This document shows positions 10,028 through 46,703 of a stretch of 64,000 nt of DNA, piece by piece. The stretch covers positions 1 through 64,000 of the forward strand of contig NZ_JABLSI010000014.1 of the NCBI RefSeq assembly GCF_019303475.1. Direction: 5' to 3'. The stretch comes from Streptomyces sp. JJ38 (GTDB lineage: Bacteria > Actinomycetota > Actinomycetes > Streptomycetales > Streptomycetaceae). The stretch's first letter is position 1; every line of letters starts with the position of its first letter. Under the pieces are notes generated by a model, which did not search any database, had not been told where the DNA came from, and worked only from the letters and a program-made list of their open reading frames with translations. The position numbers and the translations under genes were made by a program.

Positions 10028-10047
10028 GGGGCGCTTCGGGGGTGCCG

Positions 10048-10073: not shown

Positions 10074-10101
10074 GCTGCGACCGTCCGGGTACCATCCGTG
10101 A

Positions 10102-28355: not shown

Positions 28356-29084
28356 TCATAGGGCGAGTCCACCTCCGGCCACCCCCGCGAAGGCTCCGAC
28401 GATCATGAAAGGCCCGAACGGCAGAGGGGTCTTCCGCCCTGCTCGGCCCGCCAGGACCAGGGCCGCCCCATAGGCCGCACCCAGCACGAACGCCGTGAAG
28501 GTGCCCACCAGCACGGCCTGCGCGCCGTACCACCCAAGAGCGACACCGCAGGGGATCGCCAGCTTGACGTCGCCCATGCCCATACCCCGGGGATTGATGA
28601 GAAACAGCACAAAATAGCCAACCCCCAGGGCGAGACCGCCGAGCAGCGCACCGGGCCACGTCCCGCCGGCTCCGGGCAGGGGGGCGGCGAGGCCGAGCAG
28701 GGCTGCCGAGGCCGTGGCCAGCGGCAGCGTGAGCGGATCCGGCAGCCGGTGCACGCGCAGGTCGACCGCGCAGAGCAGGGCGGCCACCGGGGTCAGGGCC
28801 AGCCAGACGACGAGTTCCGGCCGCGTGCCGACGGCGGCGGCGAGCCCGCCGCACGCGACGGCCGTGGGCAGCACGAGCCGCAGGGGTGCCGGGCCATAGG
28901 CGGCGCCGGGGCAGCCAGGACACCGGCCGTCGCCCAGCCACCCCACGACGGGGTGGCCGTCCGGGCAGCGATCGCGCCACGGCTCCCCCGCCGGGACGGC
29001 GAACCGGTAGGCGGGGCGGACGAGGAGCCGTCCGGCCACGGCGCCGTACGCGACGGCGAGCAACACCACGATCAGTTCGGCCAC
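28356..29084 (-). CDS. Prepilin peptidase (A24 family)
   Basis: The 242-residue polytopic membrane aspartic protease cleaves type IV and Flp prepilins. The second catalytic aspartate is in the GXGD motif GMGMGDVKLA and the first in AVDLRVHRLPDPLT. An N-terminal cytoplasmic loop carries cysteines (DRCPDGHP, GRCPGCPG) like the zinc-binding element of bifunctional enzymes. Six or seven hydrophobic segments are seen. It is the only prepilin peptidase in the window and probably processes the Flp pilin encoded about 11 kb away. Confidence 0.93.
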   Translation of the reverse strand: MAELIVVLLAVAYGAVAGRLLVRPAYRFAVPAGEPWRDRCPDGHPVVGWLGDGRCPGCPGAAYGPAPLRLVLPTAVACGGLAAAVGTRPELVVWLALTPVAALLCAVDLRVHRLPDPLTLPLATASAALLGLAAPLPGAGGTWPGALLGGLALGVGYFVLFLINPRGMGMGDVKLAIPCGVALGWYGAQAVLVGTFTAFVLGAAYGAALVLAGRAGRKTPLPFGPFMIVGAFAGVAGGGLAL

Positions 29085-29133
29085 GACCCGAGCCTACGGA
29101 CGCGGCGGTCCCGCGGAGGACCGGATCCGGCGG

Positions 29134-29195
29134 CCGGGGTCGGTGGCCCGAGCCGGCCTCCGGGGTCGGCGCCCGGGGTCGGCGGCCGGGGTCGG
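29134..29195. repeat. Four CCGGGGTCGG copies in an intergenic region
   Basis: CCGGGGTCGG occurs at 29134, 29160, 29173 and 29186 in the 246-bp region between the divergent peptidase and DUF192 genes. The spacing is irregular. It is probably low-complexity expansion. Confidence 0.5.
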
Positions 29196-29330
29196 CTGCC
29201 CCGGGTTCGGCACCGGGCGCCCGGGGCGAGGGGCGAAGTCGTCGGGCGAGGGCGGTACGGGGACCGTTCGGCCGGGTCGCCGATCCCGACGGACAGAACT
29301 CGGCCGCCACAGCGGCTAGTCTGACCAGCC

Positions 29331-29705
29331 GTGAGCCTGCCCCCCGCGGCGGCGGCCGACGGCCCCGCCCTCCTGCACGTAGGCGGGGTGACCATCCCGC
29401 TGGAGGTCGCCGCGACCCTGCGCGCCCGCAGTCGCGGGCTGCTCGGCCGGGACGGCGTCGAGGGCGCGCTGCTCCTCACCCCGGCGGGCGGCGTCCACAC
29501 CCTCGGCATGCGGTTCCCCATCGACGTCGCCTATCTGGGCCGTGACCTGCGGGTGCTCGCCGTGCGCACGATGCGGCCCGGGCGCGTCGGCCTGCCCCGG
29601 CCGCGGGCCCGGCACGTCCTGGAGTCCGCGGCGTGCTCGATGGCCGGCTGGGGGCTCGTGCCGGGTGCCGTGGTGCGGGTGGAGCCCCTCCCGATCGGTC
29701 CCTGA
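29331..29705 (+). CDS. DUF192 family protein
   Basis: The 124-residue DUF192 protein has the conserved start of the fold (TLRARSRGLLGRDGVEGALLL), the family motif GVHTLGMRFPIDVAYL and C-terminal VLESAACSMAGWGLVPG. The family is a small beta fold of unknown function. There is no clear signal peptide, unlike many bacterial members. The GTG start at 29331 has no Shine-Dalgarno; TAGTCT lies about ten bases upstream, so translation may be leaderless. The location near the prepilin peptidase recurs in Actinobacteria, so a link to pilus biogenesis is possible but unproven. Confidence 0.88.
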   Translation: MSLPPAAAADGPALLHVGGVTIPLEVAATLRARSRGLLGRDGVEGALLLTPAGGVHTLGMRFPIDVAYLGRDLRVLAVRTMRPGRVGLPRPRARHVLESAACSMAGWGLVPGAVVRVEPLPIGP

Positions 29706-33173: not shown

Positions 33174-33260
33174 CACGCTATGGGCACACCAGCCGACCCG
33201 GAACCGAGATCCACCGGCATCGCGCTGGACTGGGAGGGGATTCCTCGGCCATCATGCCGC

Positions 33261-33716: not shown

Positions 33717-33757
33717 CCCGATTGCCGGGCCGTCGGACGGGTGCGAAGATCACCGGC

Positions 33758-34615
33758 ATGACCGCCTCCCCCGCACACTTCCCGGCCGACGACGGCACCC
33801 GGCTCGCCTACCACGTCCACGGTGAGGGCCGACCGCTCGTCTGCCTGCCGGGCGGACCCATGCGGGACGCCGCCTACCTCGGCGACCTGAGCGGCCTGGC
33901 CGCCGCGGCCGGACGGCGGCTGATCCTCCTGGACCTGCGCGGCACCGGCGAGTCCGCCCGGCCCGAGGACCCCTCGACCTACCGCTGCGACCGGCAGGCC
34001 GACGACGTCGAGGCCCTCCGCGAGCACCTCGGCCTGGAGCGGCTGGACCTCCTCGCCCACTCCGCCGGTGCCAACCTCGCCGCACGCTACGCGGAACGCC
34101 ACCCGAAGCGGATCGGGCGGCTCGTCCTGGTCACGCCCAACGCGGCGGCCGTCGGGATCGACGCGAGTGCCGAGGAGCGCCGGCAGGTCGCCCTCCTCCG
34201 CGAGGACGAGCCCTGGTTCGCCGACGCCTGGGCCGGCCTGCAGGCGGTCGCCACCGGGCAGGCCGCCCCCGAGGACTGGCAGCGCATCACCCCGTTCAAG
34301 TACGGGCGCTGGGACGATGCCGCCCGGGCCCTGGAAGCGGCAGGGAAAGACCAGCGGCACGAGGAGGCCGCCGGGGTGTTCATGAGCGACGCCTCCTTCG
34401 ATCCGGAAACCACACGCCGCGCGCTGGCGGCCCTGCCCGGGCCCGCGCTCCTCCTCGCCGGGGAGTTCGACGTGGCCAGTCCGCCCGCCGCCGTCGAGCG
34501 CCTCGCGGAACTGCTGCCCGACGCCCGGGTCGTCGTCCAGCCCGGCGCCGGCCACTTCCCCTGGCTGGACGACCCGGCACCGTTCGCGTCGACCGTGGCC
34601 GCGTTCCTCAACTGA
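33758..34615 (+). CDS. Alpha/beta hydrolase
   Basis: The 285-residue hydrolase has an oxyanion region CLPGGPMRD, LLDLRGTGESARP, nucleophile motif LAHSAGANLAARYAERHP, acid GEFDVASPP and histidine GAGHFPWLDDP. The layout resembles proline iminopeptidase or esterase relatives, but GHSxG is replaced by AHSAG, so the substrate cannot be named. ATG at 33758 begins the homologous region. The 3' end overlaps the convergent acetyltransferase gene by eight bases. Confidence 0.88.
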   Translation: MTASPAHFPADDGTRLAYHVHGEGRPLVCLPGGPMRDAAYLGDLSGLAAAAGRRLILLDLRGTGESARPEDPSTYRCDRQADDVEALREHLGLERLDLLAHSAGANLAARYAERHPKRIGRLVLVTPNAAAVGIDASAEERRQVALLREDEPWFADAWAGLQAVATGQAAPEDWQRITPFKYGRWDDAARALEAAGKDQRHEEAAGVFMSDASFDPETTRRALAALPGPALLLAGEFDVASPPAAVERLAELLPDARVVVQPGAGHFPWLDDPAPFASTVAAFLN

Positions 34616-35090
34616 CCTCGGCCGGAGGGCCGCTGAACGCGGCCGTCCCGCGGTCGATCATCCACTGGTTGCTGTGCAGCACACGATCGCCGAACGTGCC
34701 CTCCGTCCGGCCCACCAGCGTGCAGCCGAGCCCGCGGCAGACGCCGTTCGACGGTCCGTTCGGCGTCGCCGGGAACGCGTGAACGCGCCCCCAACCGCCG
34801 TCGTCACGCGCTCGCTCCAGCAGCGTCCGCGTCGCCCGCCTGGCCAGCCCGCGGCCCCGGAACTCCGGCAGCTCCATCCAGCCGATCTCCGAGATCCGCC
34901 CGTGTGAGCCGTGGTCACGCGTGACCAGGATCACCAGCCCCGCCACGGCATCGGGGCCCGCCCCGGCCGGGATGACGGCCGTGAACCAGCCCACGTCCGC
35001 CGCCGCGTCCCCGGCGTCCCGCCGCACCTTCTCCCCCATCCCCTCGCGCGGCACCGGCCCGCCCAGCTCGGCCGTCATCACCGGGATCAC
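34608..35090 (-). CDS. GNAT-family acetyltransferase
   Basis: The 160-residue product has a GNAT core: ISEIGWMELPEFRGRGLARRATRTLLERAR (acetyl-CoA binding, residues about 75-105 in blocks) and FPATPNGPSNGVCRGLGCTLVG. The usual first strands of the fold are short or unclear, so the N terminus may be reduced. The start is uncertain among GTG 35090 and nearby GTG/ATG codons. It overlaps the convergent alpha/beta hydrolase stop by eight bases, so there is no room for a terminator between them. The substrate is unknown. Confidence 0.78.
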   Translation of the reverse strand: MIPVMTAELGGPVPREGMGEKVRRDAGDAAADVGWFTAVIPAGAGPDAVAGLVILVTRDHGSHGRISEIGWMELPEFRGRGLARRATRTLLERARDDGGWGRVHAFPATPNGPSNGVCRGLGCTLVGRTEGTFGDRVLHSNQWMIDRGTAAFSGPPAEVS

Positions 35091-35199
35091 ACCGCGTCCC
35101 GACCTACGCCTCGACGTCGCCGGCCACCACGTCCCGCAGCCCCAACCCCACCCCCCCTCCCGCGCGGCCTCGTCGCCGCGCGGGAAGCCCGATCCCCGC

Positions 35200-35970
35200 T
35201 CACCGCTGGCGTTGGGCGGCCAGGAACTCCTCGAACGTCACCGTCCCGACGGCCCGGTCGGGCGCGGTGTGATGACCCTGCGCGAACGCCCGGAACGTCC
35301 TCCCCGGCAACCGCAGTTGCACGATGCGGCGATGCCGCGGCCACGACGCCGTCGTCGCCCGCGCCAGCTCATACCAGGAACGCACCTCGGGCCCCGCCAC
35401 GTCCGGCACGCGCCCGGCGGGCTCCCCCTGCGCCAGCTCCGCCAGCCGGGCCGCGACCTCCCGCACCTCCACAGGCTGGCACGGGACGCCCTTGCCGACG
35501 AAGACGCACGGCAGCCTGCGCTGCGCCGTCGTCACCCCCGCGACCAGCTCGTGGAACTGTGTCGCCCGCAGCACGGTCCACGGCAGCCCGGAGGACTCGA
35601 TCAGCCGCTCCGTCTCGACCTTCGTCCGGTAGTACGAGAACGGGACGCGGTCGACGCCGACGATGGAGACGTAGACGATGTGCGGCCGCCGCCCCTCCGC
35701 CCTCACGGCGTCCAGCAGCCTCCGCGTGTGCGCCGCTTCCTTGCGCTGGTGCATGGCGCAATGGACGACGACGTCGACACCGGCCACCGCCGCGTCCAGC
35801 CCCTCCCCCGTCTCCAGGTCGGCCACCCGCCACTCACACGGCCGCCCGTCCCCCGCCGGACGCGCCCGCCGGCTCATCACCCGCACCGCGGCTCCGTCCG
35901 CCAACAGCCGCTCCACCAGCGGCCGCCCCAGCGTGCCCGTCGCCCCCGTGACCAGAATCCTGCCGCTCAC
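35200..35970 (-). CDS. NAD(P)-binding NmrA-like oxidoreductase
   Basis: The 256-residue atypical short-chain dehydrogenase has a Rossmann start ILVTGATGTLGRPLVERLL, then VDVVVHCAM, VYVSIVGVDRVPFSYYRTKVETE (a YxxxK-like tyrosine and lysine) and VLRATQFHELV. These mark the NmrA/SDR_a5-type sugar-epimerase-like group, often flavin or NADPH dependent. GTG at 35970 is supported by GGAGGG seven bases upstream; the longer frame lacks homology. The role is unknown. Confidence 0.88.
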   Translation of the reverse strand: MSGRILVTGATGTLGRPLVERLLADGAAVRVMSRRARPAGDGRPCEWRVADLETGEGLDAAVAGVDVVVHCAMHQRKEAAHTRRLLDAVRAEGRRPHIVYVSIVGVDRVPFSYYRTKVETERLIESSGLPWTVLRATQFHELVAGVTTAQRRLPCVFVGKGVPCQPVEVREVAARLAELAQGEPAGRVPDVAGPEVRSWYELARATTASWPRHRRIVQLRLPGRTFRAFAQGHHTAPDRAVGTVTFEEFLAAQRQR

Positions 35971-36097
35971 CGTGCCGCCCTCCGCGCACCGACGCCGTCC
36001 TGACCCAAGGGTGACGGCGCGCCCCCGCGAACTGTGACACCGCCACGGCGTTGCCCCGTCACAGCGGAGACCACACGCGGCGCGCCGAGGGAGCGGC

Positions 36098-36134
36098 ACC
36101 GTGTGGGGTGACGGCGGGGCCGTCACCCCACACG
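36098..36134 (-). terminator. Perfect 17-bp terminator hairpin
   Basis: Arms 36098-36114 and 36118-36134 pair perfectly around a GGG loop. It begins six bases past the isochorismatase-family stop on the minus strand. Confidence 0.85.
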
Positions 36135-36140
36135 GCCGGT

Positions 36141-36704
36141 TCAGTCAGCCACCGCCGTGAAGGCCACCTCCGCGGTGCCGGCGGTCACGGCCCGGCGGCC
36201 GGGCCCGGACTGGAACTGCCAGTACAGGTTGGTGTGCGCGATCACCTGGGCCGGCTCGGGTGCGCCGTACTCGCGAAAGTCCTGCGTGGTGTGCGCGTCG
36301 CTGACCAGCGTCACGTCGTACCCGCGGACGAAGCCCCCGTGGATCGTCGCGCGGATGCACCCGTCGGTCACCGCGCCCGTCACGACCAGTCGGCCCACCC
36401 CGCGCTCGGCGAGCACCGCCTCCAGCGTCGTGTCCTCGAACGCGTCACCGTAGGACTTGTGCACGAGCGGCTCAGCCTCGTCGCGGTCCAGCTCCGGCAC
36501 CCACTGCCAGGGCTCACTGCCCCGCTCCAGCTCGTCGTCCGCGTGCTGGATCCACACCACGGGAACTCCCTCGGCGCGGGCCTTGCCCACGAGCGTGTTG
36601 ATGTTCGCGATGACTCCGTCACGGTCGTGGGCGTCCGCCACCACACCGTTCTGGACGTCGATGACGAGCAACGCGGTGTTCGGCCGATCGGTCAGGGTCG
36701 TCAT
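36141..36704 (-). CDS. Cysteine hydrolase, isochorismatase family
   Basis: The 187-residue isochorismatase-fold hydrolase has the catalytic triad visible as Asp in LLVIDVQNGVV, Lys in VHKSYGDAFEDT and Cys in VTDGCIRATIHGGFVRGY. Members cleave amides or vinyl ethers such as nicotinamide, ureidoacrylate or isochorismate; no partner gene indicates the substrate. ATG at 36704. It is followed by a very strong hairpin and is monocistronic. A 237-bp promoter region separates it from the divergent small membrane protein gene. Confidence 0.92.
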   Translation of the reverse strand: MTTLTDRPNTALLVIDVQNGVVADAHDRDGVIANINTLVGKARAEGVPVVWIQHADDELERGSEPWQWVPELDRDEAEPLVHKSYGDAFEDTTLEAVLAERGVGRLVVTGAVTDGCIRATIHGGFVRGYDVTLVSDAHTTQDFREYGAPEPAQVIAHTNLYWQFQSGPGRRAVTAGTAEVAFTAVAD

Positions 36705-36941
36705 GAAGAGCTCCTGTTCGTCGTCACGGGACGTGGTCCCGCAGCCCGGCCGATTCGCCCCCGTACGAACAGCGACCCCGGCCCCACTCGAGCATCGAAT
36801 GGACTTTCACACTACGCGGGCGGACTGACAGCCGGCCCCAACCGCCCCTTCAGCCAAGGGCACGTAGGCAAGGAGCCACCGCCGAATCCCGTACACCACG
36901 TTCGTTAGGCTCCCCTGGCCACCAGGGGGAGGGGAGCGGCT

Positions 36942-37289
36942 GTGAGCACAGGGCGACAACTCGACGGGGAGAAGCTGCGGGCCGAAAGCCGCACCCGCAT
37001 GCTCTGGGGCCTCACGTCTGTGCTGTGGGTGTGGTTCGCCTGGCTGATGCTCGTGCCCTACACACCGAGCGACGAGGCGCGCAAGGCCACATGCGACGCC
37101 CCTCTCGTCAAGGCCTTCGACCGCGAACCGGACCGGTGGCGCAACCCCGGCGCCTGCGCCGCGTACCGCACCTGGCCGGAGCTGCTCGGGGTACTCGCTC
37201 TCGCCACCACGTCCACCACCGCGGCCATGGCGGCCCATGTGCACAGGTCGTTCGTGGTGCGCCTGGGTGCGCGCGGCGAGGCGCGGTGA
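36942..37289 (+). CDS. Small membrane protein of unknown function
   Basis: The 115-residue product has two hydrophobic segments at about 21-39 (MLWGLTSVLWVWFAWLMLV) and 80-98 (LLGVLALATTSTTAAMAAHV), with a loop containing two cysteines (ATCDAPL, GACAAYR) that would face outside. No family is recognised. GTG at 36942 follows a strong GGGGAGGGGAG site. A short hairpin (CCCCTGG with CCAGGGG, 36912-36928) lies just before the ribosome site. It borders the decayed region at 37.3 kb. Confidence 0.75.
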   Translation: MSTGRQLDGEKLRAESRTRMLWGLTSVLWVWFAWLMLVPYTPSDEARKATCDAPLVKAFDREPDRWRNPGACAAYRTWPELLGVLALATTSTTAAMAAHVHRSFVVRLGARGEAR

Positions 37290-37323
37290 GAGCAGTCCTA
37301 CGGCCGCCATGCGACTCGCCCGC

Positions 37324-37623
37324 TCAACGGCGGAGGTTCACACCGAAGCCCCGGAACGCGTCTCCGGTGAGCTCGCTGCCGCCGGTCCATGCGCGGAACC
37401 ACTCGGTGGTCGGCGACGGAAGCGAAGCCCTCGAAAGGCTCCAAGTCCACGCCGTCGCCGCCGTCGTAGTCGAAGGGCTCCGCCAGGGCCGTGGCGAGCG
37501 CGGCGGGAACGCGCGATCGTCGTCACCGTCCGCCACCCGGCAGGTATCGGCGCGCCTGCGCGCCCCACTCGGGCGACGGGCCCGAGCGCACACCGGCGAG
37601 CAGGGAGGCCAGGCCTCGGGGGA
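37324..37623 (-). pseudogene. Frameshifted gene fragment (possible SMI1/KNR4-like)
   Basis: No single frame gives a plausible protein, but pieces in different minus frames do. One reads GLASLLAGVRSGPSPEWGAQ, another ATALAEPFDYDGGDGVDLEP, and a third TEWFRAWTGGSELTGDAFRGFG and then a stop. The last piece resembles sequences I associate with SMI1/KNR4-type proteins, a weak recollection. The apparent order suggests at least two frameshifts. It directly follows the truncated XRE gene on the same strand. Confidence 0.35.
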
Positions 37624-37950
37624 TCACGGCTGTATAGGGAGCAGCGGCTCCAAGGGTGCGGCCGGAAGCATCCCTCGGTACTCGTTCCACCACTGCCGCG
37701 TCCGGTCGTCCGCCATCGCCTTCAGGCTGTGGAGTAGGGCGACGTCGCCGCAGCCGTGGACGCGCGCGAAGGCTTCGACTCGCTCCGGTCTCACTCCGAT
37801 ACGCCCAAGCTCCATGTTGCTTACGCGGGACTGACCCACTCCGAGCAGTGCGCCAGCTTCCGTAGCCGACGACCCAGCACGCTCGCGCAGTTTTCGCAGC
37901 TCAGCGCCAAGCCTCCTCTGCCGGACCGTCGGTGCCTCTCGCGCCGGCAT
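37624..37950 (-). CDS. Truncated XRE-family regulator
   Basis: The 108-residue product has an intact N-terminal helix-turn-helix (LGAELRKLRERAGSSATEAGALLGVGQ, SRVSNMELGRIGVRPERVEAFA, residues about 14-70). It breaks off just after RQWWNEYRGMLPAAPLEP. Streptomyces relatives of this WhiJ-like type are about 280 residues, with a DUF5753 domain exactly after this point. The start is excellent (AGGAGG four bases before ATG 37950), so a DNA-binding stub may still be made. Its usual partners, a DUF397 gene and an ATPase gene, are missing or reduced to a fragment. Confidence 0.75.
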   Translation of the reverse strand: MPAREAPTVRQRRLGAELRKLRERAGSSATEAGALLGVGQSRVSNMELGRIGVRPERVEAFARVHGCGDVALLHSLKAMADDRTRQWWNEYRGMLPAAPLEPLLPIQP

Positions 37951-38109
37951 CTGACCTCCTCCGCTTCGGCGCCAACCGGCATCAGGTCACTCACGGACGG
38001 TGGCACCGTGGCACCGTGGAGGAAGTGCACCGCCCTGCCGCCGCGCGGTGGGGCGGCGGGCCACCGGAACGGGTAGCCATCTCGCCGTCTCCGAGAGGAA
38101 ATACCACGC

Positions 38110-38187
38110 ATGACGATCTCCCCTGCTCCCGGTCACCTCAGGCCGACGACGGACGGGAAGGTCGTCTGGTTCGAGCTGGGAGCTTGA
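38110..38187 (+). pseudogene. C-terminal remnant of an anti-sigma-type ATP-binding protein
   Basis: A 25-residue ORF with a GAGGAA site ends RPTTDGKVVWFELGA. This is the typical last strand of Streptomyces HATPase_c_2 proteins (compare STGKLVWFEVPVP at the end of the phosphatase at 13.4 kb). Such ATPases are normally encoded next to WhiJ-like XRE genes, as here, but the rest of the domain is gone. It probably reflects a deletion that joined a start region to the 3' end of the gene. Confidence 0.6.
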
Positions 38188-38216
38188 CGACCGTTCACGC
38201 CGAGGTCGAGATAGGC

Positions 38217-38260
38217 CTGAGCCGGTCCGCCACGGGGGAGAGGTAAACGAACCGGCTCAG
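38217..38260 (-). terminator. Terminator-like inverted repeat after the OmpA-like gene
   Basis: CTGAGCCGGT (38217-38226) pairs perfectly with ACCGGCTCAG (38251-38260) over a 24-base loop, 25 bases past the OmpA-like stop. Confidence 0.5.
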
Positions 38261-38284
38261 AGTAACTACACTACTACGCTCAGC

Positions 38285-38899
38285 TTATTCGTTGCGGGGG
38301 AACGAGACCTCCACCCGTCGATTCTTTGTCCGGCCTTCCTCCGTGGCGTTGGACGCGACCGGGTAGTCCTCGCTGTAGCCGCGGATGTTGAAGGTGATCC
38401 CCGGGTTGTCGAGATGCTTGGCCAACTCGCGGTGCACGGCCTCGGCCCGGTCCTGGGAGAGCGTAACGCCGTGGTCATAGGAGCCGAGGTTGTCCGTGAA
38501 GCCGTAGATGTTGACCTCGGTCGAGCCCTGCTCGTTGATCTCGTCCGCGATGTCCTTGATGCGGGCGCTCGCCTCGGCGTTGAGTTCGGCACTGTCCATA
38601 CCGAAGAGAACTTCCGCCTGAAGCGTGAACTTCGTCTTCTCGTTCGAGTCCTCGCGCCGCTCCTCGCCCGAGCCGTCCTCGACGACCTGAACGATGTCGA
38701 TGACCCGAGGCTCCGCGAGTGCCGCGCCGTCGCGCATCCGCAGCTGCGGCGAGTTGGCGTCGATGCGTACCGGCGGCTTGTCGTTGGCCGAACCGTAGGG
38801 CCCGTCAGCGCTCGCCCCGGGAGCCAGCGTGAGGGTGAGCGCGGCGGCGGTGAGCGTCGCCAACGCCGCGGATGTCACTGGGCCGCGCCGCACGGTCAT
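38285..38899 (-). CDS. Secreted OmpA-family peptidoglycan-associated protein
   Basis: The 204-residue product has a Sec signal peptide (SAALATLTAAALTLTLAPGASA, cleavage near residue 31) and a C-terminal OmpA_C domain (about 95-204). Its motifs are LFGMDSAELNAEASARIKDIAD, IYGFTDNLGSYDHGVTLSQDRAEAV and GYSEDYPVASNATEEGRTKNRRVEVSF in blocks; the TD and NRR residues bind peptidoglycan. In a Gram-positive it would dock to the wall, perhaps as an anchor for the Tad pilus. It is four bases after the lipoprotein gene in the unit starting with the Flp pilin. Confidence 0.92.
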   Translation of the reverse strand: MTVRRGPVTSAALATLTAAALTLTLAPGASADGPYGSANDKPPVRIDANSPQLRMRDGAALAEPRVIDIVQVVEDGSGEERREDSNEKTKFTLQAEVLFGMDSAELNAEASARIKDIADEINEQGSTEVNIYGFTDNLGSYDHGVTLSQDRAEAVHRELAKHLDNPGITFNIRGYSEDYPVASNATEEGRTKNRRVEVSFPRNE

Positions 38900-38903
38900 A
38901 TGC

Positions 38904-39494
38904 TCACCCCTCCGTGAGTTCGAGCGTCACGGGAGACATTGACGGCACATGGAACTCCACCGCTGCGACATTGGCAGGCGGGGCAGGGAACTGAGCGAAG
39001 ACGGGCCTGCTCTCGCCCGGCTGGACACCCGCCAACCCCGTCGTGCACAAGCATTGACCGTCAGTATCCCGGAGAACCATGTAGCGCTTTTTGCCCGACT
39101 TGTCAATCAAGGTGGCACCTGCGATTGAGGACTTGGACTTGATGGCCGTCTCCTCGGATCGCCACTCAGCGGCACGGAATGTTCGGTCGCCCTTGTTGTA
39201 TAGCGTCCCACTCACAGTGACGAACCCGCCGGCGTCGCGCACGGCGGAGTGAACAGCGATCTCGATCCCGTTGGCACCTTTGAGCTCGCCAATCACCTTG
39301 CTGGTGTCGACTTCATCATCCCCTGCGTCCGTGCTGGCGCTACTGCTTGCGCTGGACTTCTTTGGCGCGGATGGGTTCGCCTCGTCGTCGTCTCCGCCAC
39401 CGCCACACGCGGCCAGCGTGAACAGGGCGACCATGGTCACCGCTGTAGCCACGGCGCTTCGGTAGGCCGTGCGCTCAGTGTGCCGAGAACTCAT
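38904..39494 (-). CDS. Putative lipoprotein in the Flp unit
   Basis: The 196-residue product has a lipobox FTLAAC (Cys30) after a hydrophobic core, then a GGGGDDDE and serine-rich linker. A beta-rich outer domain (about 75-196: IEIAVHSAVRDAGGFVTVSGTLYNKGDRTFRAAE in blocks, CLCTTGLAGVQPGESRPVF) resembles the immunoglobulin-like DUF4352 type. It lies between the TadG-like and OmpA-like genes and is likely anchored on the membrane as part of the pilus or its docking complex. ATG at 39494; an upstream TTG at 39527 would lack a ribosome site. Confidence 0.82.
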   Translation of the reverse strand: MSSRHTERTAYRSAVATAVTMVALFTLAACGGGGDDDEANPSAPKKSSASSSASTDAGDDEVDTSKVIGELKGANGIEIAVHSAVRDAGGFVTVSGTLYNKGDRTFRAAEWRSEETAIKSKSSIAGATLIDKSGKKRYMVLRDTDGQCLCTTGLAGVQPGESRPVFAQFPAPPANVAAVEFHVPSMSPVTLELTEG

Positions 39495-39523
39495 TGGTGA
39501 CAAATCCTTCGGTGGAGTGAACT

Positions 39524-40114
39524 TCAATCGATGAGCCGAACGGAAAACATGATGTCCAGGTCGGGCAAGGAGTCACCTGCCTCAGGATCAACTGTGACCG
39601 AATCGCCATCGCAGTCCAGTTCGATCGGAGCGGGATCACCTTCCGCGTCGGACTCCGACGTCAGTACGCAACGGGGTTCGAGGAGCGCTCGCGCATTCGC
39701 CGTCGCGAAAGTCCCTTCTGTGCCAGGCACGACGGTGTCACCCACCGGGTCCAGCGCCTTCACTTCTACCCGGACACTCTGCGGGGGCCATGGCGAGACC
39801 TCGCACACCAGAGCATCCGCGCCGTTGCTCTCCGCGAACTGGCGGGCTGCGGCACAGGGATCCTGGAGACCGACTATGTGCCCATTGAGCAGGTCCTTCC
39901 AATCATCAGGATTCGCAACGCTGTCCAGAAGTGCTTCGCCCAACTGGTCCCGTGTGTCGTACGCCGCAGCGAGGGCTGCGGCATCTGCAGCTCCTTGTAC
40001 ACCGTTGCGGCTGACGGCAGCCTGCCCGAACGCAAAATAGGCCACAGCCAGGAACAGCAACCCTGCGACCACAGTGATGTACACGGGAAAGGCTTGACCT
40101 CGATCACCCCCCAT
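39524..40114 (-). CDS. TadG/TadE-like pilus assembly protein
   Basis: The 196-residue product opens DRGQAFPVYITVVAGLLFLAVAYFAFG, the TadE/TadG-like N terminus with one membrane helix. NGVQGAADAAALAAA, the hallmark of Tad minor pilin proteins, follows. The outer part contains cysteines (DPCAAA, LVCEV, RCVL, LDCDG) that could pair in disulfides. ATG at 40114 is 11 bases after the Flp pilin stop, without an obvious Shine-Dalgarno, suggesting coupling. Gene order is pilin, TadG-like, lipoprotein, OmpA-like. Confidence 0.88.
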   Translation of the reverse strand: MGGDRGQAFPVYITVVAGLLFLAVAYFAFGQAAVSRNGVQGAADAAALAAAYDTRDQLGEALLDSVANPDDWKDLLNGHIVGLQDPCAAARQFAESNGADALVCEVSPWPPQSVRVEVKALDPVGDTVVPGTEGTFATANARALLEPRCVLTSESDAEGDPAPIELDCDGDSVTVDPEAGDSLPDLDIMFSVRLID

Positions 40115-40125
40115 GGAGCGAGCCG

Positions 40126-40305
40126 CTATTTGCCCCCGGTGACCTTCGAGATCTGGTCGCCGATCGCATTGGCGATCTCCGTTCCGAAGTCCGTCGTCAG
40201 AAGCACGACGATGATCGCGGCTACGACGGCGAGGATGCCGAGGTACTCGATCGCGGTCTGGCCGCGATCGTCGGGGCGGGGCTTGAAGAGCGGAAGGCGG
40301 GGCAT
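40126..40305 (-). CDS. flp: Flp/Fap-type pilin
   Basis: The 59-residue Flp prepilin has a basic leader (MPRLPLFKPRPDDRG), then the processing region GQTAIEYLG with the glutamate and tyrosine of the Flp motif, a hydrophobic helix (ILAVVAAIIVVLLTTDFG) and a short soluble end. Cleavage by the prepilin peptidase is expected at or next to the glycine before QTAIEYLG. ATG at 40305 follows GGGAGAA. It heads a separate transcription unit with a promoter at 40529-40557, so pilin levels can differ from those of the assembly machinery. Confidence 0.93.
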   Translation of the reverse strand: MPRLPLFKPRPDDRGQTAIEYLGILAVVAAIIVVLLTTDFGTEIANAIGDQISKVTGGK

Positions 40306-40528
40306 GGGGTTCTCCCTCTCCGGGGTCGGGCGCGGGGGTGTGAGGTCGGGCTGTGGAGCGGGACGGGGGCGGGGCGGGGCCCAGACCGTCACGGGGGGCC
40401 GGTGTCACATGGTTCGGCACGGGACATGGCCTCCTCGCGGTCCGTCGGGGGTACGCGGTGACGTGGTCAGGGTTCGCTCCAGAGAGTGACTCTGCCACAA
40501 CGGGTTGCGCACGCGAAGGGGGTGCGGC

Positions 40529-40557
40529 GAATTGTGTGGGAACTCGTAATGTGTCAA
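40529..40557 (-). promoter_or_regulatory. Promoter for the Flp pilin unit
   Basis: On the minus strand TTGACA (40557-40552) and CAATTC (40534-40529) are separated by 17 bases, a near-consensus vegetative promoter. Transcription would start about 215 bases before the pilin ATG, giving a long leader. It lies just past the tadC stop. Confidence 0.7.
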
Positions 40558-40575
40558 GGCCACTTCACTCACCCC

Positions 40576-41463
40576 TCACTCCCCCGTGATGCGGCTGAAC
40601 TCGGTTTCGGTGCCGAGGAAGAGACCGGCGACCAGCAGGATAAGCGTGGCCGGGACCATGACGGTGGTGATGACGAGGGTGGCCTTGGGGACGGCACGGG
40701 CGGCTCGGCGGCGGGCCAGTTGGGCGTCGGTGCGCCGCATGTCGGCGGCGATGGCGATGAGGGTGTCGACGATGGGCGCGCCGAGGTCCTCGCCCTGCTG
40801 GAGGGCGGTGACGAACAGGGCCACCTGTTCGGAGTCGTTGCGGCGGCGGAGGTCCTCGAAGGCCTGGCGGCGGCTGACGCCCATGTCCATCTGGCGCAGG
40901 GTGATGCGGAGTTCGTCGGCCCACGGGCCCTCGTACCGTTCGGCGACGCGGTCGAGGGCCTGGCGGAAGCCGAGGCCGGCGGAGACGACGACGGCGAGCA
41001 CGTCGAGGAAGTCCGGCAGGGTGCGCTCGATCTCGGCGCGGCGGATGCGGATGGATGCCGCAATGCCGACCTCGACCCAGAACAGGCCGAAGGCGACCAT
41101 GAGGGCCGCGAGGAGCCATTGGCCGCGGGTGAGCATGGCGAGGGCGCCGAAGGCGCCGAGGAAGCCGTAGACCGCGCGGCGGGCGGCGTAGCGGTCGAGG
41201 GTGAGGCCGCCGGGGTTGCCGGCGCGGTCGATGCGGCGCCGGACGGCGTCGACGCGCCGGGGGCCCATGAGCCGGAGGACGAGGGGTGCCCAGCGCATGC
41301 CGAGGCGGTCGAGGGCGGAGCCGACGGGCGTGGTGCGGGAGGCGCCGACTTCCAGGGCGAGGGCGAGGTCGGCGGGGAGCTTGGCGTCGGCGCGGTAGAG
41401 GCGGATGCCGTAGGCGAGCCCGGTGAGGGAGAGGGCTGCGAGGGCGGCGAGGAGGAGGGTCAT
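40576..41463 (-). CDS. tadC: Tad pilus inner-membrane platform protein TadC
   Basis: The 295-residue type II secretion F-domain protein has the TadC pattern ERTLPDFLDVLAVVVSAGLGFRQALDRVAER, ELRITLRQMDMGVSRRQAFEDL and LFVTALQQGEDLGAPIVDTL in blocks. It has helices at about 1-20, 105-140 and 260-285 near the C terminus. It pairs with TadB to form the membrane platform driven by the CpaF ATPase. ATG at 41463 is 12 bases after the tadB stop. It is the last gene of the assembly operon before the Flp promoter. Confidence 0.93.
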   Translation of the reverse strand: MTLLLAALAALSLTGLAYGIRLYRADAKLPADLALALEVGASRTTPVGSALDRLGMRWAPLVLRLMGPRRVDAVRRRIDRAGNPGGLTLDRYAARRAVYGFLGAFGALAMLTRGQWLLAALMVAFGLFWVEVGIAASIRIRRAEIERTLPDFLDVLAVVVSAGLGFRQALDRVAERYEGPWADELRITLRQMDMGVSRRQAFEDLRRRNDSEQVALFVTALQQGEDLGAPIVDTLIAIAADMRRTDAQLARRRAARAVPKATLVITTVMVPATLILLVAGLFLGTETEFSRITGE

Positions 41464-41475
41464 GGGTGGTGGGCC

Positions 41476-42414
41476 TCAGACGTCGATCCGGGACATGCGG
41501 CGGATGACGAGGAATCCGGCCGCGTAGAGGGAGAAGGCGAGGACGACGGCGGCCTGGCCGACGAAGGTGCTGGTCATGCGGTCGAGGACGCCGGAGCCCG
41601 CGCGGTCCATCATGAGCAGGACGGTGAGGCCGATGAGGGGGACGGCGTAGGCGGTCATCATGACCTGGGAGAGCTGGGTCCGGACCTCCCGCCGGGTCTC
41701 CTTGCGCTGTTCCAGCGTCTCGGTGAGGTTGCGCAGGGAGCTGACGACCTGGCCGCCGGCCCGGTTGGAGAGCACCAGGGTGGTGACGAGGACGACGAGT
41801 TCGCGGGAGGGGAGGCGGGCGGCGAGCTCGCCGAGGGCGTCGTCGAGGGAGTGGCCGACGCCGAGGGCGTGGGAGACCTTGGTGAGCTCCTCCCCCGCCG
41901 GTGCGTCCATCTCCTCGGCGGCCATGGTGATGGCGGTGCGCAGGGCGAGCCCGGCCTGGGTGCCGTTGGCGAGGAGGCGGGCGAGTTCGGGGAGCTGGTT
42001 GATGAACTTGTCGATGCGCTTCTGCCGCTGCCAGTTGAGGAAGGCGTTGGCCGCGCCGAGGCCCAGCACCGCGGCGAGGGGGCCGAAGAAGGGGGAGAGG
42101 AGGGACTGGGCGGCGAGCCACAGTGCGGCGACGGCGGAGGCCACGTAGACCGTGTACTCGCCGGGGGTGAGGTCCAGCCCGGTCGCGGCGAGGCGGAGTT
42201 CGAGGCGGCGGCCGGGGGCGGTACGGCGCAGCCGGCGGTCGAGGGCGGCGAAGCGGCGGTCGCCGCCGGCCACGGGGGGCGTCTGGCTGAGCCGTTCGAC
42301 GAGGGTTTGGTGCTGGGCGCGCCCCGCGGCGTAGGTGCGCAGCCCGGCGACGGCGAGGGCGCAGGCGACGAGCGTGGCGCCGAGGGTGAGCAGTATGAGC
42401 TGGTCGAGAGTCAC
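41476..42414 (-). CDS. tadB: Tad pilus inner-membrane platform protein TadB
   Basis: The 312-residue type II secretion F-domain protein has helices at about 1-25, 95-130, 250-270 and 285-305. The T2SSF core is seen in QLPELARLLANGTQAGLALRTAI, HSLDDALGELAARLPSRELVVLV and LSNRAGGQVVSSLRNLTETLEQR in blocks. GTG at 42414 has GAGGA seven bases upstream, and the gene follows cpaF by ten bases. It works with TadC and CpaF. Confidence 0.93.
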   Translation of the reverse strand: MTLDQLILLTLGATLVACALAVAGLRTYAAGRAQHQTLVERLSQTPPVAGGDRRFAALDRRLRRTAPGRRLELRLAATGLDLTPGEYTVYVASAVAALWLAAQSLLSPFFGPLAAVLGLGAANAFLNWQRQKRIDKFINQLPELARLLANGTQAGLALRTAITMAAEEMDAPAGEELTKVSHALGVGHSLDDALGELAARLPSRELVVLVTTLVLSNRAGGQVVSSLRNLTETLEQRKETRREVRTQLSQVMMTAYAVPLIGLTVLLMMDRAGSGVLDRMTSTFVGQAAVVLAFSLYAAGFLVIRRMSRIDV

Positions 42415-42424
42415 GGCGGAGTCC

Positions 42425-43762
42425 TCAGCGGGCGGCGCGGGTGGCGAGTTCGAGTTCGGAGTCGCCGACGCCGAAGCTGGGCGGGAGGGCTTCGCCGCTG
42501 AGGTAGAGGCGGTCGGCGACGCGGCGTGGGACGGGGTGGTAGGTGAAGTGGCCGCGGACGACGCCGTCAGCCTCGATCGGCCGGTGCTGGAAGCGGGCGA
42601 CGGTGGTGATGCGGTAGTCCTCGCGGCCCGCGGAGTCGAGGAGGGCGAGTTCGGTGACGCGGCGGGAGCCGTCGGGGTGCCGGGTGAGCTGGACGAGGAC
42701 GTCGACGGCGCTGTTGATCTGGTCGCGTAGGGCCTCGAAGGGGATCTTGACCTCGGACATGGAGGCGAGGGTCTGGAGCCGCATGAGGGCGTCCTCGGTG
42801 CTGTTGGCGTGGACGGTGGCGAGGGAGCCGTCGTGACCGGTGGACATGGCTTGCAGCATGTCGAGGGTCTCGCCGCCGCGCACCTCGCCGACGATGATGC
42901 GGTCGGGCCGCATGCGCAGGGAGTTGCGGACGAGGTCGCGGATGGTGATCTGTCCGTTGCCCTCGACGTTGGGCGGACGGGATTCGAGGGAGATGACGTG
43001 CTGCTGCTGGAGCTGGAGTTCGGCGGCGTCCTCGACGGTGATGATGCGTTCGCCGTCGGGGATGAGCCCGGAGAGCGCGTTGAGGAGTGTCGTCTTCCCC
43101 GAGCCGGTGGCACCGGAGACGATGATGTTGAACTTCGCCCGGACGAGTGAGGCGAGGAAGACGGTCATCGGTTCGTCGAGCGTGCCGAGGCCGATGAGCT
43201 CGTGGAGGGTGTACGAGCGGGGAAAGCGGCGGATGGTGAGCGTCGGGCCGGTGAGGGCGAGCGGCGGGATGATGACGTTGACGCGTTCCCCGGTGGGCAG
43301 GCGGGCGTCCACCATGGGGTTGGACTCGTCGACGCGGCGGTTGACGGTCGAGACGATGCGCTCGATGGTCTGCATGAGCTGGTCGCCGGAGGCGAAGCGC
43401 AGCGGGAGGCGTTCGACGCGGCCGGCGCGTTCGACGTAGACGTGGTCGGGCCCGTTGACCATGATCTCGGTGATGGAGGGGTCCTCCAGGAGCGGTTCGA
43501 GGATGCCCAGCCCGAGCGCCTCGTCCACGACACGGCGGATGAGCAGGGCGCGTTCGGAGGTGGACAGGACGGGGCCCTCGCGGCTGATGATGTGGCCGAG
43601 GACGCGTTCGAGCCGGGTGCGGCGTTCCGCGGCGGTCAGCGAGGACATCTCGGCGAGGTCGATCTCCTCCAGCAGCTTGGCCCGGAACGTGCCGACGAGG
43701 TGGCTCTCCTCGGGCCGGTCGGCGGTGGCTTCGGGCGCTGCGATGCGGGCCTTGAGGCTCAC
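42425..43762 (-). CDS. cpaF: Tad pilus secretion ATPase CpaF/TadA
   Basis: The 445-residue type II/IV secretion ATPase powers pilus assembly. Motifs are IMVNGPDHVYVERAGR (N-terminal domain), Walker A IIVSGATGSGKTTLLNAL, the Asp box ITVEDAAELQLQQ, LRMRPDRIIVGEVRGGETLDML (Walker B) and GHDGSLATVHANS (His box). GTG at 43762. It lies in the assembly operon between the second TadE-like gene and tadB. Confidence 0.96.
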   Translation of the reverse strand: MSLKARIAAPEATADRPEESHLVGTFRAKLLEEIDLAEMSSLTAAERRTRLERVLGHIISREGPVLSTSERALLIRRVVDEALGLGILEPLLEDPSITEIMVNGPDHVYVERAGRVERLPLRFASGDQLMQTIERIVSTVNRRVDESNPMVDARLPTGERVNVIIPPLALTGPTLTIRRFPRSYTLHELIGLGTLDEPMTVFLASLVRAKFNIIVSGATGSGKTTLLNALSGLIPDGERIITVEDAAELQLQQQHVISLESRPPNVEGNGQITIRDLVRNSLRMRPDRIIVGEVRGGETLDMLQAMSTGHDGSLATVHANSTEDALMRLQTLASMSEVKIPFEALRDQINSAVDVLVQLTRHPDGSRRVTELALLDSAGREDYRITTVARFQHRPIEADGVVRGHFTYHPVPRRVADRLYLSGEALPPSFGVGDSELELATRAAR

Positions 43763-43798: not shown

Positions 43799-44197
43799 TC
43801 AGTCGCGGACGCGGGGCATGGTGGCCGACTTCGTGGCGCTGCCGAAGTCGACGAAGGGGATGACGGAGGGGATGTCGACGGTGGCCGTCACCGTGACCTC
43901 CCCGGGGGCGCGGGCCTCGGCGAAGGACGCGCCGTCGGCGAGCCAGCCGCTGAGGGCGGCCTCCCCGGCGTCGGCGGCGGCGCGTTCGTCGTCCTGGGAG
44001 ACGTAGCGGGCCGCGGTCCGGGCGGCGGTGCCGGCCTGCTGGGCGGTGTAGGCGGCGAGACCGAGCTGGACGGCGGCGAGGGCGATGAGGAGCAGCAGGG
44101 GCAGGAAGCCGAGGTACTCGATGGCCGCCTGGCCTCGGTCCCTGGAGCGGTTCCGGGAAGGTGCGTGCCCGCGCCCGCAGCTCAGCGGCCGACTCAT
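43799..44197 (-). CDS. TadE-like minor pilin, second copy
   Basis: The 132-residue TadE-family protein has the basic start MSRPLSCGRGHAPSRNRSRDRG, then GQAAIEYLGFLPLLLLIALAAVQLG (Flp-like motif plus helix, in two blocks) and a C-terminal outside part. ATG at 44197 overlaps the stop of the first TadE-like gene as ATGA. It is probably processed by the same prepilin peptidase as Flp and incorporated at low level in the pilus. Confidence 0.9.
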   Translation of the reverse strand: MSRPLSCGRGHAPSRNRSRDRGQAAIEYLGFLPLLLLIALAAVQLGLAAYTAQQAGTAARTAARYVSQDDERAAADAGEAALSGWLADGASFAEARAPGEVTVTATVDIPSVIPFVDFGSATKSATMPRVRD

Positions 44198-44643
44198 TCC
44201 GCCTCCTCCACCACATGGGCGGCCTTGCCCGTGACGTCGAAGGGGAAGGCGACGCTGCCGGGGAAGAGCACGGGCACCCGCAGCCGGACGGTGGCGGTGA
44301 CGAGCCCGCCGGACTCGGCGCAGCCCACGGAGGCCGAGGAGCTCCAGGCGCTCGGCAGGTCGGAGGTGCCCGCGGCGGCGCAGTCGCCACCGACGGCCGC
44401 GGCACGGGCGGCCTCGTCGGCGGCGTTCCCCGCGAGGCTGTAGGTGTAGCCGACGAGCGCGAACTGCCAGAGAAGCACCAGGGTGAGCAGGATCAGCGGC
44501 AGCATGCCGAGGAACTCGATCGTCACCTGCCCCCGGTCTCGGGAAGGCTGTTCCCGGAAACGCCCGCCCCCGAAGCGCCCGCCCCCGAAGCGCCGCTCCC
44601 GTGGCCGCCACGCGCACGGGACCGGCCCCGCCCCGCCGGGCAC
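44194..44643 (-). CDS. TadE-like minor pilin, first copy
   Basis: The 149-residue TadE-family protein has an unusual arginine/glycine-rich cytoplasmic leader (RERRFGGGRFGGGRFREQP) before DRGQVTIEFLGMLPLILLTLVLLW, the pseudopilin-like helix. The outside domain has two cysteines (GGDCAAA, SVGCAES). The GTG start at 44643 lies just after the cpaE stop; the leader is longer than usual and an internal start is possible. It overlaps the next TadE-like gene by four bases. Confidence 0.88.
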   Translation of the reverse strand: MPGGAGPVPCAWRPRERRFGGGRFGGGRFREQPSRDRGQVTIEFLGMLPLILLTLVLLWQFALVGYTYSLAGNAADEAARAAAVGGDCAAAGTSDLPSAWSSSASVGCAESGGLVTATVRLRVPVLFPGSVAFPFDVTGKAAHVVEEAE

Positions 44644-44646
44644 GGC

Positions 44647-45996
44647 TCACCGCTCCCCGGCCGCGCCGCCCCGGCGGCGTCGGCGGGTGGTGAGGGCGCC
44701 CCGGGCGCGGGCGGCCGGGACGAGTGAGGGGCCGGGAGACGCCGGGGCGGGGAGGAGCGCGGAGCGGCCGGAGGCGGCGGGCTGGGTGCCGCCGCGCCGT
44801 TCGCCGCCGACGAGCCCGACCTCCCCGGCCAGGGCCCACAGGGCCTGGCGGACGCTGCCGCGGCTGTCGAGTTCGTGCATGCGGGAGGAGTCCAGGCAGC
44901 TCTGGAGCTCCTTGAAGGCGGCGGGGACGGTGGTGCGGGCGACGCGGGTGCCGGAGATCTGCGCGATGAGCGGGGGCTGGATCTCGGTGCCGCGGGTGTG
45001 CCGGTTGACGAGGGTGACGGTGTCCTCCGCCTTGCGGATCTGGAGCCGGTCCCACAGCCGCACCTGCCGTTTGACGCCGCGTACGGCGACGACGTCGGGG
45101 GTGGTGACGAGCAGGGCGGTGTCGGCGGTCTCGACGGCGGCGGCGCCGGCGGCGTCGAGGTGGGCGCCGCAGTCGACGACGACGGCGTCGTAGCGGGCGC
45201 GCAGGGCGTGGAGGAGCTGGCGGGCCGCGGGGTCGGTGACCTCTTCGGCGCGCTCGCCCTCGGCGGGTGCGAGCAGCAGGGCGAGGCCGCTCTCGTGGGC
45301 GAAGACGGCGTCCTGGAGGACGCGGGGGGTGAGGTCGCTGATGCCGGCGAGGTCGGCCACGGAGCGGCGGAACTGGACGTCGAGGAAGGAGGCGACGTCG
45401 CCGGTCTGGAGGTCGAGGTCGACGAGGACGGTCTCGCGGCCGGAGGCCTGGGCGGCGAGGGCGAGCTGTACGGCGGTGAGGGTCGTGCCGACGCCGCCCT
45501 TGGCGCCGGTGACGGTGACGAGGGTGCCGCCGGGCCCGGAGCCGAACGGGTCCTCGCCGGGGCCGAGGTGGCGGCGTACCCCGGTGGACCACCCGGCGAC
45601 GGCCTGGACCCGGGCGGCGAGGTCCTCGTAGCCGATGGGCAGGGCGAGGACGCCGCGGGCCCCGCTGTCCATGGCGGCGGAGTAGACGGCGGGGCTGGGG
45701 TCGCTGGTGATGAGGACGGTGCCGACGGCCGGGAAGCGCACCGCGATCTCGCGGATGACGTCGAGGGCGGGGCGAGGGCCGACGCGCTCGTGGACGAGGA
45801 CGACCTCGGGGAGCCCGGCGACGGACTCGGAGCCGAGCGCGGCCAGCAGGTCGAGCAGGGACGTCGAGTTGCCGATGGGCGGCTGGGGGTCGGCGGCGGG
45901 GAGGCGCCCGAGGAGCTCGGCGAGGGCGTGGGCCAGGTCGGCGTCGCCCACGGCGGGGAGGACGCGCGTGGCGGGCTGGTGCATGGGCTGCCTCAC
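44647..45996 (-). CDS. cpaE: Tad pilus localisation ATPase, CpaE/ParA-like
   Basis: The 449-residue CpaE-like protein has an N-terminal receiver-like region (about 55-140, LPEVVLVHERVGPRPALDVI) lacking a clear phosphoacceptor pocket. A MinD/ParA-type ATPase follows with deviant Walker A VTGAKGGVGTTLTAVQ, VLVDLDLQTGDVASFL and VDCGAHLD. The C terminus is Arg/Gly-rich (ALTTRRRRRGG). CpaE positions the secretion machinery at the membrane. Its GTG start overlaps the cpaB stop as GTGA. Confidence 0.92.
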   Translation of the reverse strand: MRQPMHQPATRVLPAVGDADLAHALAELLGRLPAADPQPPIGNSTSLLDLLAALGSESVAGLPEVVLVHERVGPRPALDVIREIAVRFPAVGTVLITSDPSPAVYSAAMDSGARGVLALPIGYEDLAARVQAVAGWSTGVRRHLGPGEDPFGSGPGGTLVTVTGAKGGVGTTLTAVQLALAAQASGRETVLVDLDLQTGDVASFLDVQFRRSVADLAGISDLTPRVLQDAVFAHESGLALLLAPAEGERAEEVTDPAARQLLHALRARYDAVVVDCGAHLDAAGAAAVETADTALLVTTPDVVAVRGVKRQVRLWDRLQIRKAEDTVTLVNRHTRGTEIQPPLIAQISGTRVARTTVPAAFKELQSCLDSSRMHELDSRGSVRQALWALAGEVGLVGGERRGGTQPAASGRSALLPAPASPGPSLVPAARARGALTTRRRRRGGAAGER

Positions 45997-46703
45997 TTGT
46001 CCTCGCCGAGCGTGTAGGTGCGTTCGTCCTGGGGAATGCCGCTCTGCTCTCCGGGGGCGACGAGGGCGAGCCGCACGTGGGTGGCGAACGACTCGGCGTA
46101 GGCGATGCGCTGGGCGCCGCGGGTGTCGAGGGCGAAGGTGATGGGCACGGCCTCGGAGGTGCCGCGGGCACGTCCGGAGTCGGCGTCGGTGTCCTCGATG
46201 CTGGTGAGTTCGCCGACGTCGATGACGCGGGCCGACTCGACGATGAGCTGGGAGACGTCGGGGTCGTCGCCCTCACCGCGGAACGTGGCGTAGACGTTGA
46301 CCCGGGCTCCGGGGGTGATCTTCCCGGCGACTCCGGTGGCGGAGTCGATCATGATGGCGATCTCCTGCTGCCCGGTATCGAGGGCCGGGCGGTCGGCGAT
46401 CATGTCGAGCTGCAGGAGGGAACCGGACTTCAGCGGGTTGACGGCGATCTTGCCCTTGATCGCCGCGAGGTCGGTGACGGCCGTCTCGGGCAGCCACCGC
46501 TCGGGCATGCTGATCTCCGTGAACTGCTCGGCCCGCAGTGCCTGGTAGGGCTCGATGTCCTTCTTCACCTCGTAGGCCCGCACCTCGGGCCCGACCTTGG
46601 ACTCCACGTCGTTGACGACGGCGAGGACGCCGACGAACGCGATGAGCGCGCCGAGTGTGGACAGGAGCATCAGGAGGATGCCGCGGCGCTGGCGGGAGTT
46701 CAT
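45993..46703 (-). CDS. cpaB: SAF-domain pilus protein CpaB/RcpC
   Basis: The 236-residue product has an N-terminal membrane helix (GILLMLLSTLGALIAFVGVLAVV, residues 8-30) and an outside part with an SAF domain (VRAYEVKKDIEPYQALRAEQF) and RcpC-like region (GQQEIAIMIDSATGVAGKITPGARVNVYATF in blocks). CpaB proteins sit in the pilus secretion channel; in Gram-positives they may bind the wall. It is the first gene of the assembly operon. ATG at 46703; a G/C-rich tandem repeat lies in the presumed promoter region upstream. Confidence 0.92.
   Translation of the reverse strand: MNSRQRRGILLMLLSTLGALIAFVGVLAVVNDVESKVGPEVRAYEVKKDIEPYQALRAEQFTEISMPERWLPETAVTDLAAIKGKIAVNPLKSGSLLQLDMIADRPALDTGQQEIAIMIDSATGVAGKITPGARVNVYATFRGEGDDPDVSQLIVESARVIDVGELTSIEDTDADSGRARGTSEAVPITFALDTRGAQRIAYAESFATHVRLALVAPGEQSGIPQDERTYTLGEDK

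Follow-up and report, generated by a model that had tools for sequence, protein, structure and literature searches.

How a Tad pilus crosses and grips a thick Gram-positive wall is an open question. In diderm bacteria, holding the base of the pilus is the job of the secretin, the pilotin, and CpaD. Monoderm Tad machines are described as lacking late-acting parts in one review (PMC6916266), and three tad operons have been counted in Streptomyces avermitilis (PMC3244431). The text of a paper on Micrococcus luteus contains neither the word OmpA nor the word lipoprotein (PMC4322843). A proposal of 2026 holds that CpaD of Caulobacter, a lipoprotein predicted to adopt an OmpA-like fold, binds peptidoglycan and serves as an anchor for the Tad machine (PMC13170226). 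Here we describe a Tad locus of Streptomyces sp. JJ38, contained in a stretch of 64,000 nucleotides (nt) at the start of contig NZ_JABLSI010000014.1 (the window). In this locus, tadC is followed by genes for an Flp-type pilin (flp), a TadG-like protein (tadG), a lipoprotein, and a secreted OmpA-like protein (ompA), with a conserved DNA element, which we call element B, lying between tadC and flp.

The best explanation of flp-tadG-lipoprotein-ompA is that it makes up the distal half of a Tad (type IVc) pilus locus on the chromosome of Streptomycetaceae, downstream of cpaB-tadZ-tadE-tadE-tadA-tadB-tadC. The window encodes a TadA-type ATPase, TadB, TadC, Flp, and a prepilin peptidase; the four genes of the module come directly after tadC, with 270 bases separating tadC from flp. 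The Flp_Fap score of the pilin fell short of the cut-off, yet the pilin motif GQTAIEYLG was found, and GQTAIEY supplies the G/XXXXEY processing site of Flp. The SD-like (Shine-Dalgarno-like) sequence GGAGAGGG precedes the flp ATG. An earlier note on this DNA had proposed a unit of just this composition after tadC, and both the gene calls and the family matches bear it out. The gene set is also widely conserved, so that the note's own refuting condition, a lack of the lipoprotein and OmpA-like genes in other Streptomyces with Tad, did not come true. Among loci fetched from 60 of 72 same-genus relatives, the order tadC, tadG, lipoprotein, ompA was found in 59, and flp was detected between tadC and tadG in 58 (none was detected in L115, and the module is missing in L079). 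The tadG-lipoprotein-ompA set likewise follows tadC in 20 of 20 additional family loci, and is present in 19 of 19 named Streptomyces loci, some of which stop short of tadC, so that a regulator farther away could escape notice there. An OmpA relative was found in 75 of 120 genomes, namely JJ38 itself, 71 of the 72 same-genus relatives, and three distant genomes. Across 150 family genomes, ompA was present in 83 of the 84 with this TadA type (counted as present at E up to 1e-140; G221 is the sole exception) and in none of the 66 without it. In L079 (G041), the single fetched relative without the module, tadC is followed by a peptidase-like fragment and another open reading frame (ORF). Extra flp-like ORFs or matches were seen beyond ompA in L074, L086, and L103.

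The domains of the last two proteins suggest that they likely anchor the pilus in the cell wall, and this proposal is strengthened by three features: invariant residues of a peptidoglycan-binding type, the lipobox, and a lipoprotein-OmpA fusion elsewhere. In the OmpA domain, D136 and R151 were invariant in 99 of 99 proteins; this conserved Asp/Arg pair contacts diaminopimelate (DAP) in relatives. PDB matches of the OmpA-like protein were to OmpA-like domains, including PA0833, OprF, YiaD, and Rv0899. A regular expression found a lipobox within the first 55 residues of 98 of 98 lipoproteins. A single ORF of a distant actinobacterium (L140, 8722-10317) combines a lipoprotein-like region with an OmpA domain, and in another actinobacterium (L142, 7771-9022) the two are adjacent, with no further tad match in the stretch. 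The model of the lipoprotein, built from an alignment that omitted 3 of the 19 named lipoproteins, is an Ig-like sandwich with a mean predicted local distance difference test score (pLDDT) of 75, rising to about 90 from residue 61 on and poorer at 111-120. Its closest matches are Bacillus YcdA, YxkC, and YjhA, which we take to be DUF4352-like, YxkC presumably being a lipoprotein. The JJ38 lipoprotein scored below the cut-off of the FxLYD model NF038353 (20.3 vs 23 bits), and had no DUF4352 match in Pfam. Wall anchoring, as a putative role, is consistent with these domains and with the proposal for Caulobacter CpaD (PMC13170226). A lesser possibility, which we consider fairly unlikely, is that the pair serves general envelope maintenance and is merely housed in a pilus operon, as the similar pair in L142 without another tad match and the fusion in L140 might suggest; the strict co-occurrence with this TadA over the 150 family genomes speaks for a role tied to the pilus instead.

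Element B, CTTCGCGTGCGCAACCCGTTGTGGCAGAGTC, is 31 bases long, and its spacing and conservation suggest that it is probably the promoter of the flp module. Its two boxes are 17 nt apart, which fits a spacing of 16-18, and the second box, CAGAGT, retains A2 and T6 of TANNNT, not T1. Its general form across loci is TTCGCA-N17-(C/G)ACAGT, with TGTGG ahead of the second box. When a position weight matrix (PWM) for element B was applied to the window and 59 relatives, 55 of these 60 loci had a score higher than 15 between tadC and flp, with leave-one-out values from 16 to 62; the best background score elsewhere in the loci was -0.3. A pattern search allowing at most 2 mismatches matched 21 of 73 genomes, once each and always at the Tad locus, and the reversed control pattern had no match in the same 73 genomes. 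In JJ38 itself, a single match was found at up to 3 mismatches. A 48-base stretch that includes element B differs at 0, 2, 4, and 8 positions in S. chumphonensis, sp. JJ66, sp. JHD 1, and sp. 549, respectively. Outside the fetched same-genus set, the core of element B scored at least 13 in 15 of 18 named loci and 8 of 20 family loci, and loci of genus g42 showed it only in a diverged form.

In many of these loci, element B lies within a coding sequence. Of the 60 loci, 41 have a response-regulator gene in the gap from tadC to flp, 34 of them together with a histidine kinase match, and in all 41 element B falls inside this gene, between the receiver (REC) and helix-turn-helix (HTH) domains, always in one frame and within a linker of 15-122 residues. 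The domains of the regulator were confirmed for L071. This constancy of frame (41 of 41) would be expected if element B were nothing but a conserved regulator peptide, LSQxQPxVGQS, its copies in regulator-free loci being remnants. We consider this highly improbable. At regulator codons 1, 5, 7, and 9 of the element, the third base was A or T in 41, 41, 39, and 41 of the 41 loci, and yet the number of different residues encoded at codons 1, 7, and 9 is 4, 10, and 4. By comparison, third bases in the REC and HTH domains of the regulator had a mean A/T fraction of 0.086, and 0 of 182 columns reached 0.9. Because the third bases are fixed where the residues vary, the constraint appears to act on element B as DNA and not on the protein. 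Moreover, 14 regulator-free loci, the window included, keep element B with no HTH match; four loci lack both, and an HTH remnant was seen in L114 alone. No relative of the regulator was found in the JJ38 genome at E 1e-40. The regulators of L061-L120 are LuxR-type, mostly accompanied by a histidine kinase, and are missing in the window.

Element B could instead be an operator for a locus-specific regulator, with flp being read through from tadC or transcribed from an unseen promoter. Several observations would fit such an operator: element B occurs in one copy per genome wherever it is found, the half of it that lies upstream is palindrome-like (TTTGCA-NN-TGCAA) in L153, L156, L161, and L164, a diverged form seemingly occurs in several g42 loci, and the 17-nt spacing could be due to chance. 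Set against these are the spacing and the A..T arrangement in the second box, which suit a promoter, and the fact that, by eye, nothing else in the tadC-flp gap is equally conserved in the window lineage. We regard an operator as possible but the less probable of the two functions. A tandem block, TGGGYCC-N5-TGGGYCC-N2-GGRCCC, lies nearer to flp in 31 of the 50 loci that have the regulator and in 0 of the 47 that do not (Fisher 1.5e-12, uncorrected for relatedness), and its pattern matched once in 2.43 Mb of control sequence. This distribution suggests that the block is likely the regulator's own binding site. The window has neither the regulator nor the tandem TGGGYCC boxes. Motif A, comprising TTGGGYCC repeats and TAYGTTT upstream of flp, was at first taken for a general flp promoter, a reading that was dropped.

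The earlier note had instead placed a strong promoter at TTGACA-N17-CAATTC, whose end lies 11 bases ahead of element B. The string is present as described and offers a perfect -35 hexamer with 17-nt spacing. Its second box, CAATTC, agrees with TATAAT at 1 of 6 bases (position 2 only) and lacks the TANNNT pattern of a -10 box. A sigma-70 scan of 33000-42000 returned no site, neither this string nor element B. TTGACA occurs 6 times on the two strands of the window, where base composition predicts 5.7, and in a hand alignment the stretch agrees at only 13, 12, and 10 of 41 bases in L121, L122, and L123, which are S. chumphonensis, sp. JJ66, and sp. JHD 1, the nearest named relatives. With its second box at 1 of 6, missed by the scan and unconserved in these relatives, this string is very hard to credit as the working promoter. 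What survives of the earlier proposal is the gene set, its conservation, the string itself, and the plausibility that the unit is transcribed on its own, from another site, and has a long leader; the strong promoter is not supported, and transcription from element B would shorten the leader from the 215 bases then proposed to about 177. No Rfam family reached the gathering threshold, either in the window or in five loci searched with it.

Taken together, these data lead us to favour a conserved Tad module that is transcribed from element B and includes a wall-anchoring lipoprotein/OmpA pair, a combined reading to which we would give an even chance. Under this reading, element B would drive transcription of the flp module and would, in most loci, lie inside the regulator gene between tadC and flp, with the window lineage having kept the element though it is regulator-free. 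Flp would form the pilus shaft, and TadG would be a minor pilin of low abundance, its translation coupled to that of Flp. The lipoprotein would be located at the membrane's outer face, the OmpA domain would grip DAP-type peptidoglycan, and both, with the CpaB/RcpC-type protein, would hold the pilus base in the thick wall. Several points weigh against this reading. The -10-like CAGAGT of element B is missing the first T of TANNNT. Element B scored below 15 in 5 of the 60 loci (L070 and L120 are without it, and L091, L100, and L114 have partial or gapped copies), and its core scored below 13 in three of the 18 named loci and in 12 of the 20 family loci, so the element is not essential to the module. 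With regard to the anchor, the fold matches of the lipoprotein are to a common beta-sandwich, the lipoprotein matches in L140 and L142 are weak (28% and 25% identity), and the occurrence of the pair away from Tad means that it may be a general wall tether.

We also found that many tadG genes have no recognizable start. L079 was excluded from the promoter and frame counts, and L075, L115, and L131, of which the last two have no adjacent flp match, were excluded from the frame and start counts, which cover 96 loci among L061-L164. In 95 of these, flp is followed by a tadG in its -1 frame, with L111 the single exception. From the flp stop to the conserved GQ motif of tadG, 44 of the 96 contain no ATG, GTG, or TTG. 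A CTG overlapping the TGA stop is present in 36 of the 44, and eight have not even that; since any TGA stop gives rise to an NTG at -1, the CTG alone is weak evidence. A comparable test found a start codon for lipoprotein (99/99), ompA (99/99), flp (99/99), tadB (95/95), tadA (90/90), and tadC (98/99). In the window, tadG, which is in the -1 frame of flp, has an ATG 14 nt past the flp stop with no clear SD. The tadG frame is open across flp in 94 of 95 loci, where 59.3 would be expected, and the roughly 120 nt ahead of flp are also unusually stop-poor. This test is weakened by the relatedness of the loci and by excesses in this frame among the control genes, which were seen for ompA (87/99, 64.4 expected), tadG (34/99, 18.8 expected), and tadB (98/98, 93.0 expected), with little excess for tadC, tadA, and lipoprotein. 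Upstream of flp, L121-L123 have a GAGGAGG with an ATG 9 nt further on, which opens the tadG frame, and this frame runs through flp into tadG; the aligned codon in the window is GTG (40420), likewise 9 nt beyond a GAGGAGG (Table 1).

These observations raise the tentative possibility, which we consider rather improbable, that a start-less tadG is reached only via flp, either by a -1 step at the flp stop, as termination-reinitiation on non-standard codons, or by upstream entry into its frame. This would fix a small TadG:Flp ratio in a wall-held monoderm Tad machine that combines the lipoprotein/OmpA pair with a promoter inside its own regulator gene. A Flp-TadG frameshift fusion is disfavoured, as a second membrane helix behind Flp would presumably leave the TadG domain on the wrong side, and no slippery heptamer was seen by eye. 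A point on the other side is a 97th locus, L075 (oriented 9812-10603), in which flp and tadG read as a single open frame, apparently either a real Flp-TadG fusion or a one-base sequencing error. Motif A was also considered as code for an N-terminal extension of TadG, and rejected: in 25 non-overlapping locus pairs with 70-97% identity in the 120 nt ahead of flp, substitutions in this stretch were spread evenly over the three codon positions of the tadG frame (95, 115, 118), in contrast to those in tadG itself (469, 413, 1007). The TadG model, built from an alignment of 8 rows, has a mean pLDDT of 79.6 and is pilin-like in outline, with a long N-terminal helix (8-64) and a sheet; against the PDB it had no match at E 0.001 or better, and its best Z was 5.9. 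The protein scored below the cut-off of TIGR03816, the Rv3654c-type TadE-like family (44.5 vs 50.95 bits).

The features of the locus are collected in Table 1. The TIGR03819 score of TadA, 329.7, is short of the cut-off of 373. A second, different TadA is encoded in the JJ38 genome (G000:C29). The prepilin peptidase and DUF192 genes (28356-29705) lie about 9 kb beyond ompA, and relatives of the two were found near Tad in 28 and 33 of 98 loci, respectively, the flank past ompA often being short. The G+C content at 38001-40000 is 0.64, as against 0.70-0.77 in the remaining 2-kb bins of the window.

Table 1. Features of the JJ38 Tad locus, in window coordinates
Feature	Position	Strand	Details
flp, Flp-type pilin	40126..40305	minus	59 aa; motif RGQTAIEYLG; PF04964 23.9 bits, cut-off 32.2
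tadG-like, minor pilin-type protein	39524..40114	minus	196 aa; PF13400 (Tad) 26 bits, cut-off 22.3
Lipoprotein	38904..39494	minus	196 aa; lipobox LAAC; Ig-like beta-sandwich model
Secreted OmpA-like protein	38285..38899	minus	204 aa; OmpA domain 98-194; PF00691 54.3 bits, cut-off 27.2
tadC	40576..41463	minus	PF00482 69.1 bits
tadB	41476..42363 (5' end approximate)	minus	PF00482 72.5 bits
tadA ATPase	42425..43762	minus	PF00437 250 bits
tadE-like 2	43799..44197	minus	PF07811 36.7 bits
tadE-like 1	44194..44643	minus	PF07811 37.7 bits
tadZ-like ATPase	44647..45996	minus	PF13614 47.9 bits
cpaB/rcpC	45993..46703	minus	TIGR03177 91.2 bits, cut-off 71
Prepilin peptidase	28356..29084	minus	PF01478 54.6 bits; 3' of ompA in some relatives
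DUF192 protein	29331..29705	plus	PF02643 40.6 bits; 3' of ompA in some relatives
Element B, proposed promoter/operator	40488..40518	minus	TTCGCG 40517-40512, 17-nt spacer, CAGAGT 40494-40489
Predicted leader	40306..40482	minus	about 177 nt for a transcription start about 7 nt past CAGAGT; GAGGAGG at 40436-40430
TTGACA-N17-CAATTC	40529..40557	minus	first proposed promoter; unsupported as promoter

A large part of one family of genetically tractable bacteria has a conserved candidate wall anchor, and dozens of species show the element inside a regulator gene or a tadG with no recognizable start. Among the open-licence papers listed, none dealt with the lipoprotein/OmpA pair in Streptomyces, with element B, or with how tadG starts. 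When compared with known structures, the lipoprotein model resembles YcdA, YxkC, and YjhA with Z of 10.2, 9.3, and 8.6 and root-mean-square deviations of 2.9, 2.9, and 3.4 over 109, 109, and 108 residues; identity is 9-15%, and no function follows from this likeness of fold. It also shares its beta-sandwich with the archaellum proteins FlaF/FlaG, whose titles call them periplasmic stators in a type IV filament machine, at Z of 6.1-6.6, which is within the range of a common arrangement and makes this an analogy only. The Tad loci of Bifidobacterium breve and M. luteus resemble the JJ38 locus in having Flp, TadA/B/C, TadE-like proteins, TadZ or TadG, and a peptidase encoded elsewhere (PMC6916266, PMC4322843), whereas the window adds a CpaB/RcpC protein, the lipoprotein, and the OmpA-like protein. 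No window protein matched the CpaD family in Pfam up to E 0.1. The JJ38 pair has in common with CpaD, found with the secretin CpaC in Caulobacter, a lipid anchor and an OmpA-like fold; in JJ38, where an outer membrane is not expected, these two features are divided between two proteins.

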